From Mycobacteriales bacterium (lineage in GTDB: Bacteria; Actinomycetota; Actinomycetes; Mycobacteriales; SCTD01): 50,793 nucleotides of DNA. The position numbers were made by a program, and so were the translations under genes. Location of the stretch: the NCBI GenBank assembly GCA_030447385.1, contig JAUJOY010000008.1, positions 72,211 through 123,003 of the forward strand, written 5' to 3'. Below the pieces are notes generated by a model. It did no database searches. It worked only from the letters and a program-made list of their open reading frames with translations, and was not told the DNA's origin. Below are positions 39,666 to 50,748 of the stretch, one piece after another (the first letter of the stretch is position 1; every line of letters begins with the position of its first letter).

Positions 39666-40727
39666 ATGAAGATCGCGCCGACCTGGGTGCGCCGCCCGAT
39701 GTCGCTGCTGCTCCTGGTGGGACTGGCCTTCGTCGTGACGCTGCTGCCGCTGCTGGTGTTCGTGGCGGCGGCCGCCTCGGTGGCGCTGCCCGGCCGCTGG
39801 CGGGTCCTGCGGCTGCTAGCGTTCGCGCTGGTCTACCTGGCGCTGGAGTGCATCGGCGTCGTGGTCGGCTTCGTCCTGTGGGTGGCGAGCGGGTTCGGCT
39901 GGAAGCTCGGCTCGCCGGCCTTCCAGCGGGCGCACTACGCCGTGCTGCACCGCCTGCTGATCGCAGTGGTCGGCGCCGCCACCGTGCTGTTCCACCTCGA
40001 GGTCGTCGACGACGAGGTGTCGTGGTCCCCCCTGGACGACGGCGTGCCGGGGTCGACCAACGCGATGGTCGTGCTGTCGCGTCACGCGGGTCCCGGAGAC
40101 TCGCTGCTGCTCGTACGCACCCTCATGCGCCGCGACCACGCCCGCCGCCCGCGCATCGTCCTGAAGGACGTCCTGCAGCTCGACCCGCTGCTCGACGTCT
40201 ACCTCAACCGGCTGCCCAACGCCTTCCTCACCCCCGGCCGCTCCGACCTCGCCGAGCAGGTCGGCCGGCTGGCGACGGGGATGGGTACGGAGGACGCGCT
40301 GCTGATCTTCCCGGAGGGAGGCAACTTCACCGAGGTCCGCCGCCTCCGGGCGATCGACCGGCTGCGGGGCAAGGGCCTGCACGACGAGGCCGCGCGGGCC
40401 GACCGCATGCGCCACGTCCTGCCCCCTCGCCCGGCCGGTGTGGCCGCGGCCCTGGCAGCGGCGCCGCACGCCGATGTGGTCCTGGTGGCGCACACCGGGC
40501 TGGAGCACCTCTCGACCCCGGCCGACCTGTGGGACGGGCTGCCTATGGACTCCGTCGTACGCATGCGGTGGTGGTTCGTCCCTGCGGCGCAGGTGCCGCG
40601 CGAGGCGCCCGCCCAGCAGGACTGGCTGTACGAGCGGTGGGCCGAGATCGACGCCTGGGTGGGGTCGTACGCGCAGATCGACGATGCGGCGCCCGGGCCC
40701 GCCGCGGCGGGTGAGGCAGCCGGCTAG
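39666..40727 (+). CDS. Membrane 1-acylglycerol-3-phosphate acyltransferase-like protein
   Basis: The 353-residue product has two or three N-terminal transmembrane helices (about residues 12-35, 45-72 and 90-106). An acyltransferase domain follows, with the HX4D motif in SRHAGPGDS and the second motif FPEGGNFTEV. It lacks the extended ends of glycerol-3-phosphate acyltransferases. The ATG at 39666 follows GAGGGGACGAGC. Its stop shares CTAG with the stop of the PP2C gene on the other strand. Confidence 0.88.
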   Translation: MKIAPTWVRRPMSLLLLVGLAFVVTLLPLLVFVAAAASVALPGRWRVLRLLAFALVYLALECIGVVVGFVLWVASGFGWKLGSPAFQRAHYAVLHRLLIAVVGAATVLFHLEVVDDEVSWSPLDDGVPGSTNAMVVLSRHAGPGDSLLLVRTLMRRDHARRPRIVLKDVLQLDPLLDVYLNRLPNAFLTPGRSDLAEQVGRLATGMGTEDALLIFPEGGNFTEVRRLRAIDRLRGKGLHDEAARADRMRHVLPPRPAGVAAALAAAPHADVVLVAHTGLEHLSTPADLWDGLPMDSVVRMRWWFVPAAQVPREAPAQQDWLYERWAEIDAWVGSYAQIDDAAPGPAAAGEAAG

Positions 40728-43248
40728 ACGTGGCTCAGCACGAGCAGCGCGACGTCGTCGTCGCCGCCGGCGCTGCGCCCGAGTTCGTGCAGGACGTGGT
40801 CGGCGACCGCCTCGGGTGGCAGGCGCAGCTCGTTGACCGCCGCGCGCAGCCGCTCCAGCCCGACGCTGATGCTCTCGTCGCGGCGCTCGACAAGCCCGTC
40901 GCTGAACAGCACCATCGTCGACCCGGCCGGCAGCGGGCAGGTGTGCTCGGGGTAGGTGGTCGCCGCCACGCCGATGGGGGCACCCGGCTCGAGGTCGAGG
41001 TAGTAGGGCGTCCCGCTTCCCGGCGCGAACAGCGGAGGAGGGTGGCCGGCGGTCGCGCTTGTCAGCAGGCGGCTCTGGGGGTCGTAGGAGCACACGAGCA
41101 GGGTGGCCAGCTCGAGGTCCATCATCTGCGAGACCCCTGCGGCCAGCCGCTGCAGCAGCGCGCCGGGACCGTGTCCCTCGAGGGCGAGCGCGGCGACGAT
41201 GCTGTGCAGCTGGCCGGCGCGCGCCGCCGAGGCCGTCCCGTGGCCCATCACGTCGCCGAGCATGCTGACCAGCCGCCCGTCCACGCGGACGGTCTTGAAG
41301 AAGTCGCCACCCGCAAGGGCGTGGATGTTGGCCGGGATGTAGCGGGTGGCCACCGAGATGCCCGGGAAGCCCGGCGCCTCCCGAGGCAGCAGCGCGCTCT
41401 GCAGGGCGGTGGCGGCACGGTTCTGGCGCACGAAGGCGAGGGCGTTGTCGAGCGCGACCGCGGCACGCGCGGTGAGGTCGCCGATCAGCAGCTCGTCGAG
41501 CGGGCCCGCAACGGTGCCCACGCTGAGCGCGCCGAGCACCCCCGAGGGCGAGCGCAACGGCACGCTGAGCACCACCCCGTCCAGCAGACGCCGTTGCTCG
41601 AGCTGCGCGGCGTCCTTCTCGCAGCCCGGCGGCGCCTCCTCCAGCAGGCGGCCCACGTCGTCCACCCTCCCGCTGCGCAACGCTCGGCTGAGCCCGCTCT
41701 CCCCGCTCACCCGCAGTGGCTGCCGCGCGACCACCTGCTCGAGCAGGGCCTGCCCTTCCGGCCGGCTGTGCCTGAGCTGCACGGGGTGCAGCCGGTCCAC
41801 GCCTCCCCCTGCCCCCGGCACGTCGAGCAGCTCCGCGACGTCGTCGACGACCGCGAGCACCAGCCAGTGCGCGAGGTCGGGGACGAGCAGCTCGGCGAGC
41901 ACGGCCAGCACCTCGCGGGGCTGCAGGCTCGCCGTGAGCCGCGGGCCCGCCTCGGCGAGCAAGGACAGTCGGTCGGTGATCCGGTCCAGCGCCTGCGCGG
42001 CGTTCTTGCGCTCGCTGACATCGTGGAAGAACAGGGACAGCCCCTGGTCGTCAGGCCAGATGTGCACCTCGAAGTGGGCGCGCAGCGGCTCGAAGAAGAC
42101 CTCGACGACGCCCGGCTCCCCGCTGTCGCGCGCCCGCTGGTACTCGCCCTCGAAGGCGCTGCCGCGGATCTGCGGGAACACCTCCCACAGCGACCTGCCG
42201 ACGAGCTCGTCCCGAGGCTTGCCCGTGAGCACCTCCGCCACCGCGTTGGCGTAGGTCAGCACCCAGTCGCGGCCGCAGCGCAGGAACGCCTCCGGCATCG
42301 TCTCGAGCAGCCGGGTGAGCTCGTCGCGCAGGCTGCGCTCGGCGGAGAAGTCGTAGGCCGCCCCGAGGATGCGCGCAGGAGCGCCGAGCATGTCCGGCAG
42401 CACGCGTCCGCGGGCTCGGATCCAGCGGTGCGTCCGGTCAGGCAGGACCACGCGGTAGTCGAGGAACAGATCCCCAACGACCGCGATCGCGCGCTCCATG
42501 GCCGAAAGGACCGCCGGCAGGTCGTCCGGATGGGCCACCGCCTCGAACGCGTCGAAGGCCCCCGAGAAGGTCTGCGGGGTGTAGCCGTGCAGCGCCATCA
42601 TCCGCTCGTCCCAGACGATCGCCCCGGTCCGCAGGTCGTACTCGTAGCTGCCGAGCTCCGCTGCCCCGGCGGCGAGCTCCATCCGGACGCTGTTGGTGGT
42701 GCTCTCGCTGAGCTGCGCGACGCGTTCCAGCTCCCGGGCCACCGTCGCGGCCAGGGCCGTCAGCGCGGCCACGTCGTGCGGGTGCCACGAGCGCGGCCGG
42801 TCGTCGTACACGCACAGCGACCCGAGCACCTCCCCGGCCGTGCTTGCCAGGACGACGCCGAGGTAGGCCGCGACCTGTCCGGAGCTCACCGGCGGCAGGT
42901 CTCGCACCCACGGATGCGCAGCCGCGTCGCTGACCAGCAGCGGCTGACCCGAGGCGGCGGTGACCGAGCAGAGGCTCTCGGTGAGCGGTCCCCGTCGCTC
43001 CGCCGGCGCCAGGTGCAGGCCATGCACCGCGGCCACCACCTGCTCCTCACCCCCGAGCAGGCTGAGCTGGGCGAAGGGCGCCTGCACGATGGCGGCGGCG
43101 AGGCTGGTCAGCTCCTGGACGCGCGCTCCGGGGGACCCTGCTGGACCAGCCGCTCGACCACCGTGACGCGTCCGGATCCGCGCAGGCTGTCGAGATCGGG
43201 GCGCGGTCCCAGGCCCTCCAGACGCTGCTCACCCCCACCGATGTCCAT
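40724..43248 (-). CDS. GAF/PAS-controlled SpoIIE-type PP2C phosphatase, frameshift near the N terminus
   Basis: If one base is restored, the product has about 841 residues. An N-terminal GAF, two PAS domains (YEYDLRTGAIVWDERMMALHG, and LLETMPEAFLRCGRDWVLTY), a second GAF, and a PP2C domain follow in order. PP2C motifs are GGDFFKTV, LGDVMGHGTASAARAG, LFSDGLVERRD and DDDVALLVL. From the ATG at 43248 the frame reads MDIGGGEQRLEGLGPR to QQGPP. At 43130-43134 a run of five C (minus strand) needs six to continue as GARVQELTSLAAAIVQ. As written, translation would restart at the GTG at 43087. The role is RsbU-like: dephosphorylating an STAS antagonist such as BldG, which is an inference. Confidence 0.85.
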
Positions 43249-43378: not shown

Positions 43379-44638
43379 GTGGCGGTGGCCAGGATCGAGG
43401 GCGTGGCACCTGCGGGGGCTCCGTTCCTCCCGCAGCGGGTGGGGCCGGTCGAGCCGTTCTCACTGCCGGTGTCCCTGCTCCTCGACGCTCTCGAGGCGCT
43501 CGTGCGCGCCGAGACCGCCAGTGCGGTCGCCTCCGCCTGCCTGCCCCTCCTGCTCGACGAGAGGGGCGTACGCGGCTGCGCCCTCGTCCAGCGCCACGGC
43601 CGCGCTGCGGTGGTGGTCGGCTCCGCCGGCTACGACTGCGGCTCGATGGAGGCGGGCGTTCCGCTGCCGCTGGACGCCGGGCTGCCGGTCACCGAGGCGG
43701 TGCGCACGGGCAGGCTCGTCGTGCGTGGTGGCGGCCCCTCATGGGTAGCGGTGCCCTTCGGTGAGCGGCGCGCGGGGGCGCTGCTGCTGAGCCTGACGTC
43801 CGCTCCCCCGGACTCGCCCGGCGAGCTCGCCCGGCTGCACCGGCTCGCGCGCGCCGTCGGGGACGCGCTGCGACGCACGGCTGAGCAGGAGGAGGCGGTC
43901 GTCGGCATGTCGGTCGTCGCCGCGCACCTTGCCGCGTCCTGCCCGGCCGCGGCGGGCCACGACGTCGCCGTCCGCCTGCTGCCCTACGACGGGCGCGTGG
44001 GCGGGGACATCGTGGTCTGCGAGCAGGGCCGCGACGGGGCGACCTGGCTGGTGGTGGCCGACGTCTGCGGCGCGGGCATGGCCGGCGCCCTCACGGCCCG
44101 CGGGGTGGGCGTGGCCGTGAGCGCGCTGGCGCCTCACGCGGCCGGCCCCGAGGACCTGCTGGCCGGGGTGGAGCGCGCCATCCGGTCCACCATCGGCCCG
44201 GGGTCCTTCGTCACGGCTGTCGCCGTCCTGCTGTCCGGCGAGCGTCTGAACGTGGCCAGCGCCGGTCATCCGGTTCCGCTGGTGCTCAGCGCCGCCGGCG
44301 TCGGCCCGGTGCTGGTGGAGCCGGGGGAGCCGCTCGCCCTCGAGACCGGCACCGGGTGTGTCCGGCGTGCCACCAGTCTCGTCCTGCCGGCCGATGCCGT
44401 GCTGCTGCTGCACACCGACGGCCTGACCGACCGCAGCACCCCTTTGGGCACCCGCGGGGTCGACCCCGTCGACCTGGTGCCCGGCGGCTGGGCCGGCGAC
44501 CTGGAAGTGCTCGCCGACCTCGTCCTGGCCGGAGCGCAGGAGGTCGGGCCGGCCGGTGACGACACCGCGCTGCTCCTGGTCCGCCGGTCCCGCATCCTGG
44601 CAGAGCGGCCCGACGCTCAGGACTCGACGGTCGCCTGA
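43379..44638 (+). CDS. GAF-like/SpoIIE-type PP2C phosphatase
   Basis: This is a soluble phosphatase of about 419 residues. The N-terminal half (about residues 35-170) is GAF-like. The PP2C half has the metal aspartates in RVGGDIVVCE and VVADVCGAGMAGALTARGV, then the later motifs ASAGHPVPLVL, LLLHTDGLTDR and GDDTALLLV. It is divergent from the other PP2C gene, with 130 nt between the starts. The GTG may be 43379 or, better placed after GGGGAGG, 43385. Its last 22 nt overlap the 3' end of the giant signalling gene in antisense. Confidence 0.88.
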   Translation: MAVARIEGVAPAGAPFLPQRVGPVEPFSLPVSLLLDALEALVRAETASAVASACLPLLLDERGVRGCALVQRHGRAAVVVGSAGYDCGSMEAGVPLPLDAGLPVTEAVRTGRLVVRGGGPSWVAVPFGERRAGALLLSLTSAPPDSPGELARLHRLARAVGDALRRTAEQEEAVVGMSVVAAHLAASCPAAAGHDVAVRLLPYDGRVGGDIVVCEQGRDGATWLVVADVCGAGMAGALTARGVGVAVSALAPHAAGPEDLLAGVERAIRSTIGPGSFVTAVAVLLSGERLNVASAGHPVPLVLSAAGVGPVLVEPGEPLALETGTGCVRRATSLVLPADAVLLLHTDGLTDRSTPLGTRGVDPVDLVPGGWAGDLEVLADLVLAGAQEVGPAGDDTALLLVRRSRILAERPDAQDSTVA

Positions 44639-47600
44639 TCCACCCCGGTCGCCAGCCGGGGCCGTGGGAGCCCCGTCGCGGTCACGAGGTCCTCGAGAGA
44701 GCAGGGCCGCAGCCACAGGTATCCCTGGGCGAGGTCGCAGCCCATCTCCCGCAGCAGGTCGCGCTGGGCCGTCTCCTCCACGCCCTCCGCCACCGCCCGC
44801 AGCCCGAGCGCGTGCGCCAGGTCCACGATGCCGCGCACGATGGCCGCGTCCTCGGGAGAGGTCACCATCCCGCGAACGAACGACCTGTCCACCTTGAGGT
44901 AGTCCAGCGGGAGCTCGCGCAGGTAGGACAGCGGCGAGTAGCCGGTGCCGAAGTCGTCCAGCGCAATCTGCACCCCGAGCCCGCGCAGCTGCTCCAGCTT
45001 GGCGACCGTGCCGCGCGTGTCGCTGACCCCGCACGTCTCGGTGATCTCCAGGATCAGCCGGGAGGGCGCGAGGCCCGCCCCGGCCAAGGCGTCGGTGACG
45101 CTGGGCACGAAGCTCGGGTGCTGGATCTGCCGGGCCGACACGTTGACGCTCATGTGGGCCGGCCCCAGGTGGGCGCTCGCCCGGGTTGCGCAGGCCAGCA
45201 CCCAGCTCCCGATGCCGGCGATCTGCGGGCTCTGCTCCGCGTACTCGATGAAGTCGGCCGGGTCGAGGAGCCCACGATCCGGGTGCTGCCAGCGGATCAG
45301 CGCCTCGAACCCCACGCGCGCCTCGGTGCGCAGGTCCATGATCGGCTGGTAGTGCAGCCGGAACTCCTCGCGGGTCAGGGCGTTCTCCAGGTCCAGCCGC
45401 AGTCGCGACCGCTGCTCGCAGCCGGTCCCCATGGCGGGCTCGTAGACCGAGTAGCGCCCCTTCCCGAGGGCCTTCGCCGCGTACATCGCCTTGTCCGCCT
45501 GCGCCAGCAGCTGGTCGGGGGTGACGTCGGAGCCGTGCGCGAGGACCAGCCCGACGCTGGTCCCCACCACCAGGTCGACGGAGTGGAGGTGTACGGGGGC
45601 GGCAGCAGCCGTGAGGATGCGCTCGACCACCTGGGTCGCGGACTCGAGGTCGGCATCCTCGAGCAGCAGGGCGAACTCGTCGCCGCCGAGCCGTGCGACG
45701 GTGTCGGCCGGGCGTACGCACGAGGTCAGCCGGCTGGCGATGCTGCACAGGAGCTCGTCGCCGATCGCGTGCCCGTGTGTGTCGTTCACCGCCTTGAAGT
45801 CGTCGAGGTCGAGGAAGGCGATCGCGGCAGTTCCGCCGGCGCCGCGGCTGCGCACCAGCGCGCGCCGCGCCCGATCGAGGAACAGCGCGCGGTTGGCGAG
45901 CCCGGTCAGGTCGTCGTGCAGGGCCCGCTCGCGCAGCTCGTCCTCGAGGCGGCGGCGCTCGGTGATGTCGCGGGTGTTGAGCACCAGGGCGGCCACGGTC
46001 GGCTGGTTGCGCATGTCGGTGATGGCGGTCTCGGCGAAGCGGTAGGACCCGTCGGCGTGCCGGAAGCGGCACTCGAGGCGTACGCCTGACCCTGCGGCCG
46101 CCTCCGCCATCGCGTCCGAGAAGCGGGACAGGTCCGACGGGTGGACCCAGTCCGTCACGGGCTTGCCGACGAGGGAAGCCGCGGGCAGCGCGAAGATGCG
46201 GCTCACGGCGTCGCTCTGGTAGCTCACGAGCCCGTCGCCGTCGACGAGCGTCAGCACGTCGCTGGAGTTCTGGGCGAGCGAGCGGAAGCGGTCCTCGCTG
46301 CCCGCGAGGTGCTCGTACGCCGCGCCGGCGAGGGTCGCGATGAGCGCCGCGAGCTGGCGCTCCTGCTCGCCGAAGAGGTCGCCGAGGTGGCGGGAGGTCA
46401 CGTAGAAGCACGCGACCGTCTCGCCGTGGACGGTGATGGGGGCGGCCAGCGCGCAGCGCAGGTCCGACAGCAGCAGGCTCTCGCTCTCGTCCGCCGCGGA
46501 GCCGCTCGTGACGACCGGCCCGCCGACGCGGACCGCGCGGGCCACGAGCGTGCGGCTGCCCTCGTCCAGGCAGCCGCCCGCAACGCTGCTCCCTGCCCGC
46601 GTCAGCTGGACCAGCTGGCAGCGCTCGCCGCGGAGCAGGGTGAGCACCGACTCACGCACCGCCGCGTCCACCGCGGCGCGTGAGCCGGCAGCGGTGATCG
46701 TGCGGCCGACGTCGAGCAGGGTGGAGAAGCGGTCGAAGACCGACAGGGTCGGCTCCGCCCCATGCGGCGCGGCCACCTCCGGAGCCGGCACCTCGAGGGC
46801 CTGCACCATCGCCCGCGCGACGTCGACCTCCGCCCCGCTGCTGCCGTTCGCCGCCGACACCTCGGCGCGCGCCAGCCGGGACAGCGCCTGCTCGTAGCGG
46901 GCCCCCTGCCGGCCGGCGACCTCGATGCTGCGCGTGAGCAGGCGCATCGCCCGGCGTGGCCGGCCGGCCAGCGAGGCGAGCAGCCCCGCTTCGCGAAGAG
47001 CGTGCGGCTGGTTGTTGGCGTAGCTGAAGGCCCAGCGGCGGGCCCGGCGGACGGCTCGCCTCGCGGCCCGCAGCCGGGTGGCGCGCAGGCCGGGCGAGTG
47101 GGCCGGCGTCGCCTCGACCAGCCGGCGCAGCGCGGTCGCGTACCAGGCGTAGACCGGCGCGATGTACTCCTGCCGCAGCCGGGCACGCCGCGCGAGGGCC
47201 ATGCCGTCCGCGAGGCGGCTCACCGCCTCGTCCACCTGCCCGGCGCCCAGGAGCCGCAGCCCCTCTGCCATGTGCAGCTCGCAGGCGGTGTGGGCGTCCG
47301 CGCTGCCGCGGGCGAGCTCGGCGGCGATGAGCCCGGCGTCCACCTGCCCGCCGGTGGCGTGCGCCAAGACGCTCAGCGAGATGCCGGCCGAAGCGGCGTC
47401 ACCGATGCCCTGCGCCGCCGTGATAACGCGCTGCGCGGTCTCCGCTGCCGAGCGCAGGTCGCCCTGCCGGTGCAGGCACTTGGCGAGGTTCCACCCCGCG
47501 GTGTTGACCTCCCAGCGGTCCCCTGTCCGTTCGAGCAGCCGGCCCGCCTCGCGGCAGGCGCCGGCGGCGCTCTCGTACCGCGTCGCGGCGTAGAGCGTGA

Positions 47601-50535
47601 CGCCGGTGAAGCTCAGGCTCTGGCCCTGCCCCCAGACGTCGCCCAGCCGTTCGCGGATCTCGCGGGACCTCGAGGCGTAGCGCACGCCGCGGGAGAACGC
47701 GGGCAGCATCGTGCACACCGGCGCGTGCTCGCTGTAGGCCTGCCCCAGCTCGGCGGAGAGTGGGTAGCGCTCGGCGAGGTTCAGCCCCCGGAAGTGCGCC
47801 CACGCGCAGGGGATGATCCCGCTGTGGAACCAGTAGAGGTAGGCGAGCCGGCTGTACAGCCGCATGGCGAGGAAGTCGCTGTCCCGGCCGGCGGGTGAGC
47901 GCCGTCCGGTGGTGAGCCGGGGCAGCAGCGTGTGTCCCGCCTGCACCGCGATCTCCCACAGCAGGCGCAGCACCAGCACGACGGTGCTGCGCGGCACCGG
48001 CCGCCCGAGCAGCGCCACCGCACCCTCGAGCTGCCTCTTGGCCGTGGGAATGTCGCCCTGCTTGAACGCGAGGTCGCCGAGCTTCCCGTCCAGCGCCGCA
48101 GCGGCGCCGGCCCCGGAGCCCGGTGCGCCGGGCCGGTGGTCGAGCAGGAGCCGGGCCCGGGCGAGCTGCGTCTCGGCCTCCCCGTAGATGCCCTGCAGGG
48201 TGAGCACGTCGCCCAGCCCCTCGGCGATGCGCCGCCGCAGCGGCAGGTCCTCGTCCTCGACCAACTGCTCGGCCATCCGGTAGTGCACGACGGCAGCGTC
48301 CAGCGCGTGCCGCGTGCGTGACAGCTCGGCTGCGGCAAGGGCGTGCGGCAGCGCCTCCGCACCGCGTCCGGCGGCGTCGAGGTGGTAGGCCAGCTCGAAC
48401 ACCGAGCCGCCCTCGTCCGGCGGGGGCAGCGCGTCGGCGGCCCGGCTGTGCAGCTCGCGGCGGTGGCTGCCCGGCAACCGGTCCAGCAACGCCTCGCGGA
48501 TCTTGTCGTGGAAGAAGGAGCACCGGCCGGTCCGCTCGTCCACCCACAGCAGTCGGCGCCGCCGCGCGTCCTCGAGGATCGCGGCGGCGCCGGAAGTCTG
48601 GCCGGACAGGCGAACCGCCGTCTCCACGTCGAACTGCTTTCCGAGGACGGCGCCGATGCTCAGCAGCTCCAGGGCGTCGTCGGGCAGCAGCTCGATCCGC
48701 CGCACCAGGAAGGGCGCCGACCGGCGTGCGGTCTGGACGTCCTTGACAGCGGTTCCGTCGAACTCCCAGGAGCGCTGACCGCGTACCAGCGCGCCGCCCT
48801 CGACCAGGCCGCGCAGCACCGCCGCCCCCATGAACGGGCTGCCGTCGGCGAGGCGCGCCACGGCCTCCACCGCCTCGTCGGGCAGCGGACCGGCCATCGA
48901 CTCCGCGAGCAGGGACATCGCGGTTGGCGAAAGGCCGCCGAGGCGGACGACCCGCGCCGACGCGATGGCGCGCAGTGGATGCTCCGCCGGCACCTCCTCC
49001 GAACGGAACGCCGCGATCACCCCGAGGGTGGAGCCCGCCTCGGAGAGGCTGGCGAGCAGCCGCACCGTCAGCGTGTCGGCCCACTGGCAGTCGTCGAGGA
49101 CGAGCAGCACCGGCCGCTCGGCCGTGGCGACGGAGCGCAGCAGCGTACGAAGTGCGCTGAGGCTGCGCTGCTCCCCGAACTGCTCGGGCCCGCTGTCTGG
49201 CTGCGCGGCGACCCCGAGCAGCGGTCCGAGCGCCGGCAGGACTCGAACGACCTCCGGCGCGACGTCGGCCACCGCGGCCGCGAGCACGTCCGCCGCCGCG
49301 AGGTCGTTGCCCAGCAGGGCGACGAGGTCGTCGGCGACGCCGTTCAGCATGGTGAACGGGCGCTGCGCCCCCTGCGCGACGCCCTGGCCATGCAGGACCG
49401 CGACCCCCGACCGGCGCGCCCGCTGGGCGACCTCCGTGAGCAGCCGGCTCTTCCCACCACCGGACTCGGCCTCGAGCAGGGTCAGTCCGCCGGACCCGTC
49501 GGCCCCTTCCTGGACCAGCTCGAGCAGGGTGGTCAGCTCGCTCTCCCGGCCCACGAAGGCCGGGTCGGTGAGGCTGTGGCGCGAGTCCAGGCGACCGATC
49601 ACGAGGGCAGGATCGGGATCGCCTGCCTCCATCGCCGCCAGCAGCGCGGCGAGGTCAGCAGCCACGGCAGCCGCCGACTGGTAGCGCTCGGCCGGCTCCT
49701 TACGCAGCAGCCGCTGCACGAGGGCGTCCAACGAGCGCGGAACAGGAGCGCCGGCCGCACGCAACTCGGGCACCGGCATGCTCAGATGCTGGCGCAGCAG
49801 GTCACCCACGGCCGTTCCGGGGAACGGCGCCGACCCGGTCACGCACTCGTACAGCAGCACCCCGAGCGCGTAGAGGTCGGACCGCTCGTCGACGGGTGCG
49901 GCCAGCAGGCCGGCCGCCTCGGGCGCCAGGTAGCGCACGGTCCCGACGAGGTCGTCGCGGATCGACTCGTCCAGCAACGAGCTGCGGGCGAAGCCGAAGT
50001 CGACCAGGGTGACCGTCTGGCGCGGGTCGTCGCCGTCGACGATCACGTTGGCGGGCTTCACGTCGCGGTGGCAGATCCCGGCGTCGTGGGCGGTGCCCAG
50101 CGCCTCCGCGAGGGCTACGCCGATCCGCATCGCCGTCAGCACCGGCAGTGGGCCGCGTGCCAGCAGCGCCGACAGCGGCGTACCCGGGATGTAGGGCTGC
50201 ACCAGGTAGATGCCGTCGGCCGAGAAGCCGAAGTCGTGCAGGCCGGGGAGCCCGCGCTCGGAGAGCCGACGCAGGACCACGCTCTCGTGCTCGAGGCGCA
50301 GCCGGGCCGCGGCATGCATGGCCGCGGAAGCGATGGCCTTGACGACCACCGGACGCTGCGTGGCGGTGTCGTGGGCGAGAAACGTCTCGACACCGTTCCC
50401 GATCTTCAGCGTCCGGTCAAGCAGGTATCGGTCGTCGATCATCGACGAGCCGGGACGCTGCGGGGCAGCCCCGGCGGTGGGCGAGAGATCAACCGAGCCA
50501 GCCGCGCCCGTTGACGCCAGAGCCACCTCCGTCAT
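44617..50535 (-). CDS. Giant kinase-STAND ATPase-TPR-GAF-PAS-GGDEF-EAL signalling protein
   Basis: The product has about 1,972 residues. In order: a Ser/Thr kinase (about 35-300; VVVKAI lysine, HRDVKPAN near 156, LVDFGFA); a PknK-like AAA/STAND ATPase (Walker A ESGGGKS near 360, Walker B LLVLDDCQWAD near 477); a helical TPR-like region (about 710-1245); GAF (about 1265-1411); PAS (about 1415-1525); GGDEF intact near 1617, with the inhibitory site RPAD five residues before it; and EAL with EALIRW near 1742, LEITE, LDDFGTGYS, KVDRSFV and AEGVEE. Both cyclase and phosphodiesterase sites look competent. The glycine loop of the kinase is partly degenerate. No transmembrane helix is evident. The ATG at 50535 or at 50616 may be the start. 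This would couple a kinase and a nucleotide switch to c-di-GMP turnover. Confidence 0.92.
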   Translation of the reverse strand: MTEVALASTGAAGSVDLSPTAGAAPQRPGSSMIDDRYLLDRTLKIGNGVETFLAHDTATQRPVVVKAIASAAMHAAARLRLEHESVVLRRLSERGLPGLHDFGFSADGIYLVQPYIPGTPLSALLARGPLPVLTAMRIGVALAEALGTAHDAGICHRDVKPANVIVDGDDPRQTVTLVDFGFARSSLLDESIRDDLVGTVRYLAPEAAGLLAAPVDERSDLYALGVLLYECVTGSAPFPGTAVGDLLRQHLSMPVPELRAAGAPVPRSLDALVQRLLRKEPAERYQSAAAVAADLAALLAAMEAGDPDPALVIGRLDSRHSLTDPAFVGRESELTTLLELVQEGADGSGGLTLLEAESGGGKSRLLTEVAQRARRSGVAVLHGQGVAQGAQRPFTMLNGVADDLVALLGNDLAAADVLAAAVADVAPEVVRVLPALGPLLGVAAQPDSGPEQFGEQRSLSALRTLLRSVATAERPVLLVLDDCQWADTLTVRLLASLSEAGSTLGVIAAFRSEEVPAEHPLRAIASARVVRLGGLSPTAMSLLAESMAGPLPDEAVEAVARLADGSPFMGAAVLRGLVEGGALVRGQRSWEFDGTAVKDVQTARRSAPFLVRRIELLPDDALELLSIGAVLGKQFDVETAVRLSGQTSGAAAILEDARRRRLLWVDERTGRCSFFHDKIREALLDRLPGSHRRELHSRAADALPPPDEGGSVFELAYHLDAAGRGAEALPHALAAAELSRTRHALDAAVVHYRMAEQLVEDEDLPLRRRIAEGLGDVLTLQGIYGEAETQLARARLLLDHRPGAPGSGAGAAAALDGKLGDLAFKQGDIPTAKRQLEGAVALLGRPVPRSTVVLVLRLLWEIAVQAGHTLLPRLTTGRRSPAGRDSDFLAMRLYSRLAYLYWFHSGIIPCAWAHFRGLNLAERYPLSAELGQAYSEHAPVCTMLPAFSRGVRYASRSREIRERLGDVWGQGQSLSFTGVTLYAATRYESAAGACREAGRLLERTGDRWEVNTAGWNLAKCLHRQGDLRSAAETAQRVITAAQGIGDAASAGISLSVLAHATGGQVDAGLIAAELARGSADAHTACELHMAEGLRLLGAGQVDEAVSRLADGMALARRARLRQEYIAPVYAWYATALRRLVEATPAHSPGLRATRLRAARRAVRRARRWAFSYANNQPHALREAGLLASLAGRPRRAMRLLTRSIEVAGRQGARYEQALSRLARAEVSAANGSSGAEVDVARAMVQALEVPAPEVAAPHGAEPTLSVFDRFSTLLDVGRTITAAGSRAAVDAAVRESVLTLLRGERCQLVQLTRAGSSVAGGCLDEGSRTLVARAVRVGGPVVTSGSAADESESLLLSDLRCALAAPITVHGETVACFYVTSRHLGDLFGEQERQLAALIATLAGAAYEHLAGSEDRFRSLAQNSSDVLTLVDGDGLVSYQSDAVSRIFALPAASLVGKPVTDWVHPSDLSRFSDAMAEAAAGSGVRLECRFRHADGSYRFAETAITDMRNQPTVAALVLNTRDITERRRLEDELRERALHDDLTGLANRALFLDRARRALVRSRGAGGTAAIAFLDLDDFKAVNDTHGHAIGDELLCSIASRLTSCVRPADTVARLGGDEFALLLEDADLESATQVVERILTAAAAPVHLHSVDLVVGTSVGLVLAHGSDVTPDQLLAQADKAMYAAKALGKGRYSVYEPAMGTGCEQRSRLRLDLENALTREEFRLHYQPIMDLRTEARVGFEALIRWQHPDRGLLDPADFIEYAEQSPQIAGIGSWVLACATRASAHLGPAHMSVNVSARQIQHPSFVPSVTDALAGAGLAPSRLILEITETCGVSDTRGTVAKLEQLRGLGVQIALDDFGTGYSPLSYLRELPLDYLKVDRSFVRGMVTSPEDAAIVRGIVDLAHALGLRAVAEGVEETAQRDLLREMGCDLAQGYLWLRPCSLEDLVTATGLPRPRLATGVDQATVES

Positions 50536-50748
50536 CGCAGCCCGCCGTCCCAGGGAAGGACGGCTGGTCCGCCCTCCCGTGGCGCAAGTGTGCGGGCCGA
50601 TCCTCCGATCGCCCATAGCCCTTCAGGATGCTTTGTCACTAGTCACGGCGGTTGATCGTGCGGATTTGTCCTGGCTGTTGGCTGCCGATGCGAGGCTGCT
50701 GGTGGGGAGGTGCGACCGCCCGGGCTCCTGACTAGGCTGCGGATCCCG

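Follow-up and report, generated by a model that had tools for sequence, protein, structure and literature searches.

Hybrid proteins that join a Ser/Thr kinase to GAF and histidine kinase domains have been described in cyanobacteria and in a small number of bacteria outside that group (PMC2176072, PMC1262709). According to the sections of these sources that describe them, the cyanobacterial dual Ser/Thr-His kinases (HstK/cbSTKIII) carry an N-terminal Ser/Thr kinase, a GAF domain, sometimes a PAS domain, and a signalling enzyme at the end; shuffling of added domains in cyanobacterial kinases was inferred in the relevant section of the 2007 survey (PMC2176072), in whose text the word GGDEF does not occur. 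A kinase linked to six TPRs and a GGDEF domain (1826 aa) was listed in 2005 from Clostridium thermocellum, with a role in making cyclic diguanylate inferred by the authors in that entry (PMC1262709). The Streptomyces c-di-GMP inventory has no kinase-bearing member in the rows of its table consulted, and the word "kinase" does not occur in its main text (PMC6205966). Ser/Thr-kinase and c-di-GMP signalling are usually treated as separate networks.

The protein studied here, encoded in a window of 50,793 nucleotides (the whole stretch of DNA analysed), holds both on one conserved chain. Like HstK/cbSTKIII, it begins with a Hanks-type kinase, has a GAF domain between kinase and output, although with a sub-cut-off score, and carries a PAS domain and a signalling enzyme at its end; this likeness is drawn from description rather than from sequence comparison. 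Whereas those proteins end in HisKA, the window protein ends in GGDEF-EAL, and neither HisKA nor HATPase was matched in it by Pfam at E<=0.001. With the C. thermocellum protein it shares a Hanks kinase, TPRs and a GGDEF domain on one chain; that protein is set apart by its description, which places it in Clostridium and names no EAL, PAS, GAF or ATPase domain in the entry (PMC1262709). The entry touches on whether the architecture had already been characterised, on which the initial annotation of the locus had made its claim depend, and the protein listed there was uncharacterised and is given without EAL. The PAS-GGDEF-EAL end is also that of Streptomyces CdgA, RmdA and CdgF, in whose table rows, unlike in the window protein, kinase, STAND and TPR are absent (PMC6205966). 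Exact-word matching of the open-licence literature, in which an absence weighs little, returned no account of the order kinase-STAND-TPR-GAF-PAS-GGDEF-EAL, and a kinase-GGDEF chain only in the entry of PMC1262709 mentioned above.

The gene is one stop-free frame encoding a single polypeptide of 1972 aa from the ATG chosen in the initial annotation, and its codon-position GC (0.77/0.52/0.94) fits a coding frame in DNA of about 74% GC. The start is uncertain because a longer in-frame ATG exists at 50616, which gives a product of 1999 aa. Pfam and an AlphaFold model confirmed the domain order that had been read from the motifs: kinase, STAND ATPase, TPR-like region, GAF, PAS, GGDEF and EAL (Table 1). 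Pkinase, AAA_16, PAS, GGDEF and EAL score above the Pfam cut-offs in the full product. GAF lies below them (GAF_2, 23.8 against 28.6 bits; GAF, 20.8 against 22.4 bits), and scores above cut-off over the same stretch in several relatives, among them ones that are 45-50% identical across these residues. As for the TPRs, tandem helices are predicted by the structure model, but no Pfam TPR model matches the window protein at E<=0.001, and in two relatives the corresponding region has sub-cut-off TPR matches.

Table 1. Coordinates of the features of the kinase-c-di-GMP gene and of its phosphatase neighbours in the window.
Feature	Position	Strand	Evidence or remark
Whole gene, 1972 aa	44617..50535	(-)	one uninterrupted ORF; full-length orthologues
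Hanks-type Ser/Thr kinase, residues 45-291	49663..50403	(-)	Pfam Pkinase 3.2e-31; PknA/PknB-type matches in sequence and fold
STAND/AAA_16 NTPase core, residues 327-501	49033..49557	(-)	Pfam AAA_16 2.2e-21; Walker A ESGGGKS, Walker B LDDCQWAD
TPR-like tandem helical region, about residues 725-1225	46861..48363	(-)	AlphaFold model; Foldseek 6mfv
GAF, about residues 1280-1410	46306..46698	(-)	Pfam GAF_2 5.7e-5, GAF 5.8e-4, both sub-cut-off
PAS, residues 1416-1529	45949..46290	(-)	Pfam PAS_4 2.1e-9, above cut-off
Short PAS-GGDEF linker, around RRLEDELRERALHD	45925..45966	(-)	output switch point in two relatives
GGDEF diguanylate cyclase domain, residues 1538-1693	45457..45924	(-)	Pfam 1.6e-41; GGDEF signature intact, as is the I-site (RxxD)
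EAL c-di-GMP phosphodiesterase domain, residues 1715-1944	44704..45393	(-)	Pfam 3.6e-72; catalytic motifs intact
SpoIIE-type PP2C phosphatase, convergent neighbour	43379..44638	(+)	3' ends overlap by 22 bases
GAF-PAS-PAS-SpoIIE PP2C phosphatase adjoining the kinase gene	40724-43087	(-)	

The N-terminal AlphaFold model (residues 30-1225, built from a 7-row alignment) has a mean pLDDT of 78.9 and shows the ATPase followed by an extended series of helix pairs. About 12 pairs make up the TPR-like region, most of its 10-residue blocks being modelled at pLDDT 85-96, so that the superstructure-forming repeats expected behind the ATPase of a STAND protein are present in the predicted structure. A Foldseek search with this model ranked a PknB kinase first and the STAND-TPR structure 6mfv second (E 6.9e-12), the latter with a loose superposition (rmsd 15.7); the TPR reading is based mainly on this match and on the model itself. 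VIA-align superposed the kinase on PknA (4x3f) with Z 29.2 and rmsd 2.4 over 264 residues; since its rows were taken up by the kinase, the STAND and TPR parts were barely tested there. A phmmer search against solved structures matched the GGDEF-EAL proteins 4rnh and 5m3c over about residues 1537-1961 and mycobacterial kinases over 22-308. The C-terminal structure model was too poor (pLDDT 56.9) and was discarded.

The kinase, Walker and c-di-GMP motifs on which the initial annotation had relied are found in the window protein, as HRD, DFG, GGGKS (Walker A), LDDCQWAD (Walker B), RPAD-x5-GGDEF, EAL, EITET, DDFGTGYS and EGVE. Lys66, HRD Asp158 and DFG Asp179 are kept, and so are APE and the alpha-C Glu, the latter assigned by eye; together these are the residues expected of a Hanks-type kinase that is active. 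The exception, which the initial annotation does not mention, is the glycine loop, LKIGNGVETFLA, which reads GxGxxT rather than GxGxxG. In an alignment of 17 members sharing the kinase-STAND-TPR front end (hereafter the platform; G111, G128, G143b, G158, G201, G241, G255, G333 and G639 were left out), GxGxxG occurs in no row and GxGxxT in eight, with GxG kept in 8. The VAIK Lys, Walker A GK[ST] and Walker B DD (LDD) are kept in 17/17 rows, and both Walker motifs expected of the AAA_16/NOD core of a STAND protein are present in the window protein, where, as in most rows, Ala replaces the first Gly of Walker A. The catalytic Asp at the HRD position is kept in 15 of the 17 rows and absent from L020 and G296, in both of which Pfam still recognises part of the kinase domain. 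Among the eight GGDEF-EAL sequences compared, the seven that have a kinase all retain its Lys, catalytic Asp and DFG. Kinase activity of the window protein is plausible, not secure, because the canonical GxGxxG is missing from the 17 rows, G347 has HSD instead of HRD, and G035 has HRDIR, with Arg for the Lys of HRDxK.

These two platform members, L020 (1017-4799 (+)) and G296 (L135, 5420-9262 (-)), also stop after the TPR region; Pfam gave no output domain for either, and none was found elsewhere in the two loci. The pattern hints that kinase activity and output may have been lost together.

The C-terminal half was compared in eight sequences, namely the window protein, five orthologues, G347 and G002. 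All eight keep the metal Asp motif, GGDEF and the RxxD five residues before it, as expected of a diguanylate cyclase, together with EAL, VN, EITET, DDFGTGY, K and EGxE, as expected of an EAL phosphodiesterase; judged by these residues, both domains may be catalytically competent.

Full-length orthologues with identical domain order, such as the initial annotation had proposed to look for in other genomes, were found in five (G004, G035, G088, Nocardioides silvaticus and N. stalactiti). Each is encoded in one frame of 1951-1973 aa, can be aligned with the window protein over almost its whole length and is 56-65% identical to it. A tblastn search of 24 genomes of the same family (E<=1e-150) matched five, the window's own included, with a full-length copy at 65% identity in G004 and, in G005, one that is broken across the ends of two contigs. 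G008 passes this threshold only over residues 1405-1947 and was rejected as an orthologue, being a 1092-aa PAS-GGDEF-EAL protein of another kind without the front end. In G002, a GAF-PAS-GGDEF-EAL piece (L131, 3527-5758 (-)) corresponds to the window protein from residue 1163 on, is 56-60% identical and has one internal stop; no kinase/ATPase front end of this copy was found within the 12 kb examined. At order level, 3 of 61 genomes matched at E<=1e-200, which adds G035 (62% identity), and a platform profile matched 11 of 148 genomes of the class sample, adding G088. A scan of named genomes with six short peptide patterns, for which 80 of 567 candidates are listed, contributed N. silvaticus (56%) and N. 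stalactiti (58%), which by shared 400-base stretches are G704 and G681 of the class sample; no Streptomyces is among the 80 named loci listed.

The platform itself also occurs with other outputs. It was detected at E<=1e-150 in 14 of 394 class genomes, among which eight have a histidine kinase output (G089, G090, G111, G143, G144, G158, G201 and G211) and four the GGDEF-EAL output (G000, the host genome, and G088, G681 and G704); the full kinase-to-EAL protein is thus rare in the sampled class. In the phylum sample (E<=1e-100), 9 of 296 genomes matched, the host included: G313 (OFTM241 locus) and G450 (OFTM18 locus) carry a histidine kinase with a receiver, G252 a histidine kinase, and G241 and G255 a class III cyclase, while the G296 frame stops after the TPR region. 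The class matches G128 and G639, and G333 of the phylum sample, are cut near contig ends, and their outputs were therefore left unassigned. In the remaining match of the phylum sample, G347 (L136, 74-5774 (-)), the platform is followed by GAF-GGDEF-EAL without PAS and lies in two overlapping frames, which may reflect a frameshift or a sequencing error.

The initial annotation had likened the front end to that of kinase/ATPase/GAF/histidine-kinase hybrids, and actinobacterial relatives do have an equivalent N-terminal part of 1400-1530 residues that is then followed by histidine kinases. These relatives (L018, L021, L123-L125, L127-L129 and L134) share kinase-STAND-TPR-GAF with the window protein, and L018 and L021 also the first PAS, at 42-50% identity over the aligned part; their output is HisKA-HATPase, to which some add a receiver and HPt, whereas that of the window protein is GGDEF-EAL. 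OFTM18 and OFTM241 share 47-54% of residues with the window protein over the kinase-to-TPR stretch; identity is 27-34% for the linker ahead of GAF, 45-50% for GAF and 40-44% for PAS. Across the columns of GGDEF and EAL it falls to 20-22%, against 56-64% for the GGDEF-EAL orthologues. The break lies right after PAS, near NTRDxTERRxLEDELRE, beyond which the two relatives continue with a second PAS, HisKA, HATPase and a receiver. This sharp boundary is direct evidence, at the level of sequence, of a single front end with differing outputs; because the change after PAS is abrupt in both relatives, the comparison supports the earlier wording of a replaced output, as a difference without a direction of the swap.

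A more distant version of the front end occurs with class III cyclases. One such protein, P0002, is encoded in the host genome itself (G000:C9:132112-137550, L007); it shares with the window protein a kinase-STAND-TPR front (kinase-AAA_16-TPR, 32% identical over residues 28-860) and a nucleotide-messenger output, but ends in a class III nucleotide cyclase, matched at the Pfam cut-off (21.9 bits). Over the 1395 aa examined of its 1429-aa frame, which is cut by the edge of the locus, GAF, PAS, GGDEF and EAL gave no match at E<=0.001. The G241 and G255 proteins (L137, L138) resemble P0002.

A platform tree of 20 rows, in which the backbone has no resolution and four rows are long, unites the window protein with its five orthologues in a single clade (support 100/100), and forcing G347 into this clade is rejected (p-AU 0.016). 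A 96-row GGDEF-EAL tree also unites the six with the G002 piece (SH-aLRT 100) and places G347 elsewhere, while forcing G347 into the clade is not rejected (p-AU 0.475). Two independent gains of GGDEF-EAL, in the window clade and in G347, are therefore suggested rather than shown, since the platform tree rejects a single clade and the GGDEF-EAL tree does not. As a tentative generalisation, the Hanks-kinase/STAND/TPR receptor could be an actinobacterial plug-in platform whose output has been swapped between modules of the histidine kinase, phosphorelay, class III cyclase and c-di-GMP types; the last of these would have been gained at least twice (in the window clade and, without PAS, in G347), and kinase/ATPase switching would directly set c-di-GMP in one molecule.

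We hypothesize that the window protein acts as a one-piece receptor and switch. Its TPR-like, GAF and PAS parts would receive signals, such as a putative ligand, or partner proteins; the STAND ATPase would serve as a nucleotide-driven switch activated by assembly; and the kinase domain may phosphorylate the protein itself or a partner, or report the ATP state. The signal would pass through PAS and the short linker to a paired GGDEF-EAL that increases or reduces c-di-GMP and is inhibited by its product at the RxxD site. Such a chain from sensor, STAND and kinase through PAS to the c-di-GMP enzyme is the reading we favour, with some confidence, the main doubts being whether the kinase is active and whether the two halves of the enzyme are both functional.

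The GGDEF-EAL half could work in one direction only, most likely as a phosphodiesterase, its GGDEF domain binding GTP or partner proteins as in Streptomyces RmdB. One domain of tandem GGDEF-EAL proteins is typically inactive, according to the passage of the inventory that deals with them (PMC6205966), and the GGDEF domain of RmdB is described as binding the sigma factor WhiG in the relevant part of PMC13232838; both active sites and the I-site are, however, intact in 8/8 sequences, and we regard a one-directional enzyme as a serious possibility that falls somewhat short of even chances. Slightly less probable, though still a real contender, is a kinase reduced to a regulatory pseudokinase or weak ATP sensor, with the STAND-GAF-PAS receptor driving the c-di-GMP module without phosphorylation. 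The loop without GxGxxG throughout the alignment, the missing Asp in two frames without an output domain and the Arg of G035 agree with it; the conserved VAIK Lys and DFG, the catalytic Asp of most rows, the PknA/PknB-type matches in sequence and fold, and the GxGxxT of eight rows, which is close to a working loop, argue against it. Fungal histidine kinases with a Ser/Thr-kinase-related domain form group X. Such a pairing also favours a pseudokinase, some fungal histidine kinases being listed with a "Serine/Threonine kinase related domain" in the section consulted (PMC4965123).

Flow in the reverse direction, with GGDEF-EAL as a c-di-GMP sensor controlling a kinase that acts on other proteins, appears improbable. 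Nothing in the sequence fixes the direction, and the I-site and the EAL pocket are able to bind c-di-GMP, but relatives carry a signalling enzyme at the equivalent position (a cyclase, or a histidine kinase that in some has a receiver) and the catalytic motifs are kept. A joining of adjacent genes by assembly or sequencing error might be suspected from a very long frame near the contig end, at which the window also ends; as five other genomes have the identical order in one frame and a sixth has it divided between two contigs, this artefact was rejected and retains a negligible probability. The conserved single chain and its histidine-kinase relatives make kinase/c-di-GMP coupling directly testable in vitro, and the relatives may serve as natural chimeras for how one sensor drives different outputs.

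Downstream, c-di-GMP would act through BldD, the most likely receptor in the host genome. The initial annotation had linked the protein to BldD by reference to Streptomyces; the host is not a Streptomyces and shares its family with a MAG filed as Frankiales bacterium, but its genome does encode a BldD orthologue, 80% identical to an S. coelicolor BldD sequence, with an intact c-di-GMP signature. This reads RGD-X8-RQED, against RXD-X8-RXXD in the relevant section of the published account (PMC4151990). PilZ gave no match in the host genome, whereas the identical search was positive in 5 of 14 control genomes. With the signature intact and PilZ absent from that search, BldD is therefore a possible receptor, and the window protein may add a new input to BldD-type control. 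The host genome holds at least four other GGDEF-EAL frames (L002-L005). In addition, a GGDEF-EAL-like stretch at G000:C9:527340-530033 (L006, L008) lies in several pieces, one with an internal stop, and is possibly a decayed gene.

The gene neighbourhood gave no support for a pathway at the loci examined. Five neighbouring proteins of the window, both SpoIIE phosphatases included, were not found by tblastn in the flanks examined at 16 other loci, where the search gave nothing but a weak match to a PAS domain within L018 and L021; a conserved phosphatase partner was accordingly rejected, the SpoIIE neighbours not being found in the orthologue flanks examined. A conserved operon was likewise rejected: ten neighbouring frames, picked by third-position GC, at the five full-length orthologues belong to unrelated Pfam families or to none. 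An enoyl-CoA hydratase neighbour is common to both Nocardioides, and in G088 the kinase-STAND-GGDEF-EAL gene has a separate PAS-GGDEF-EAL-GAF frame (L122:3-2678 (+)) at a distance of about 1.5 kb.
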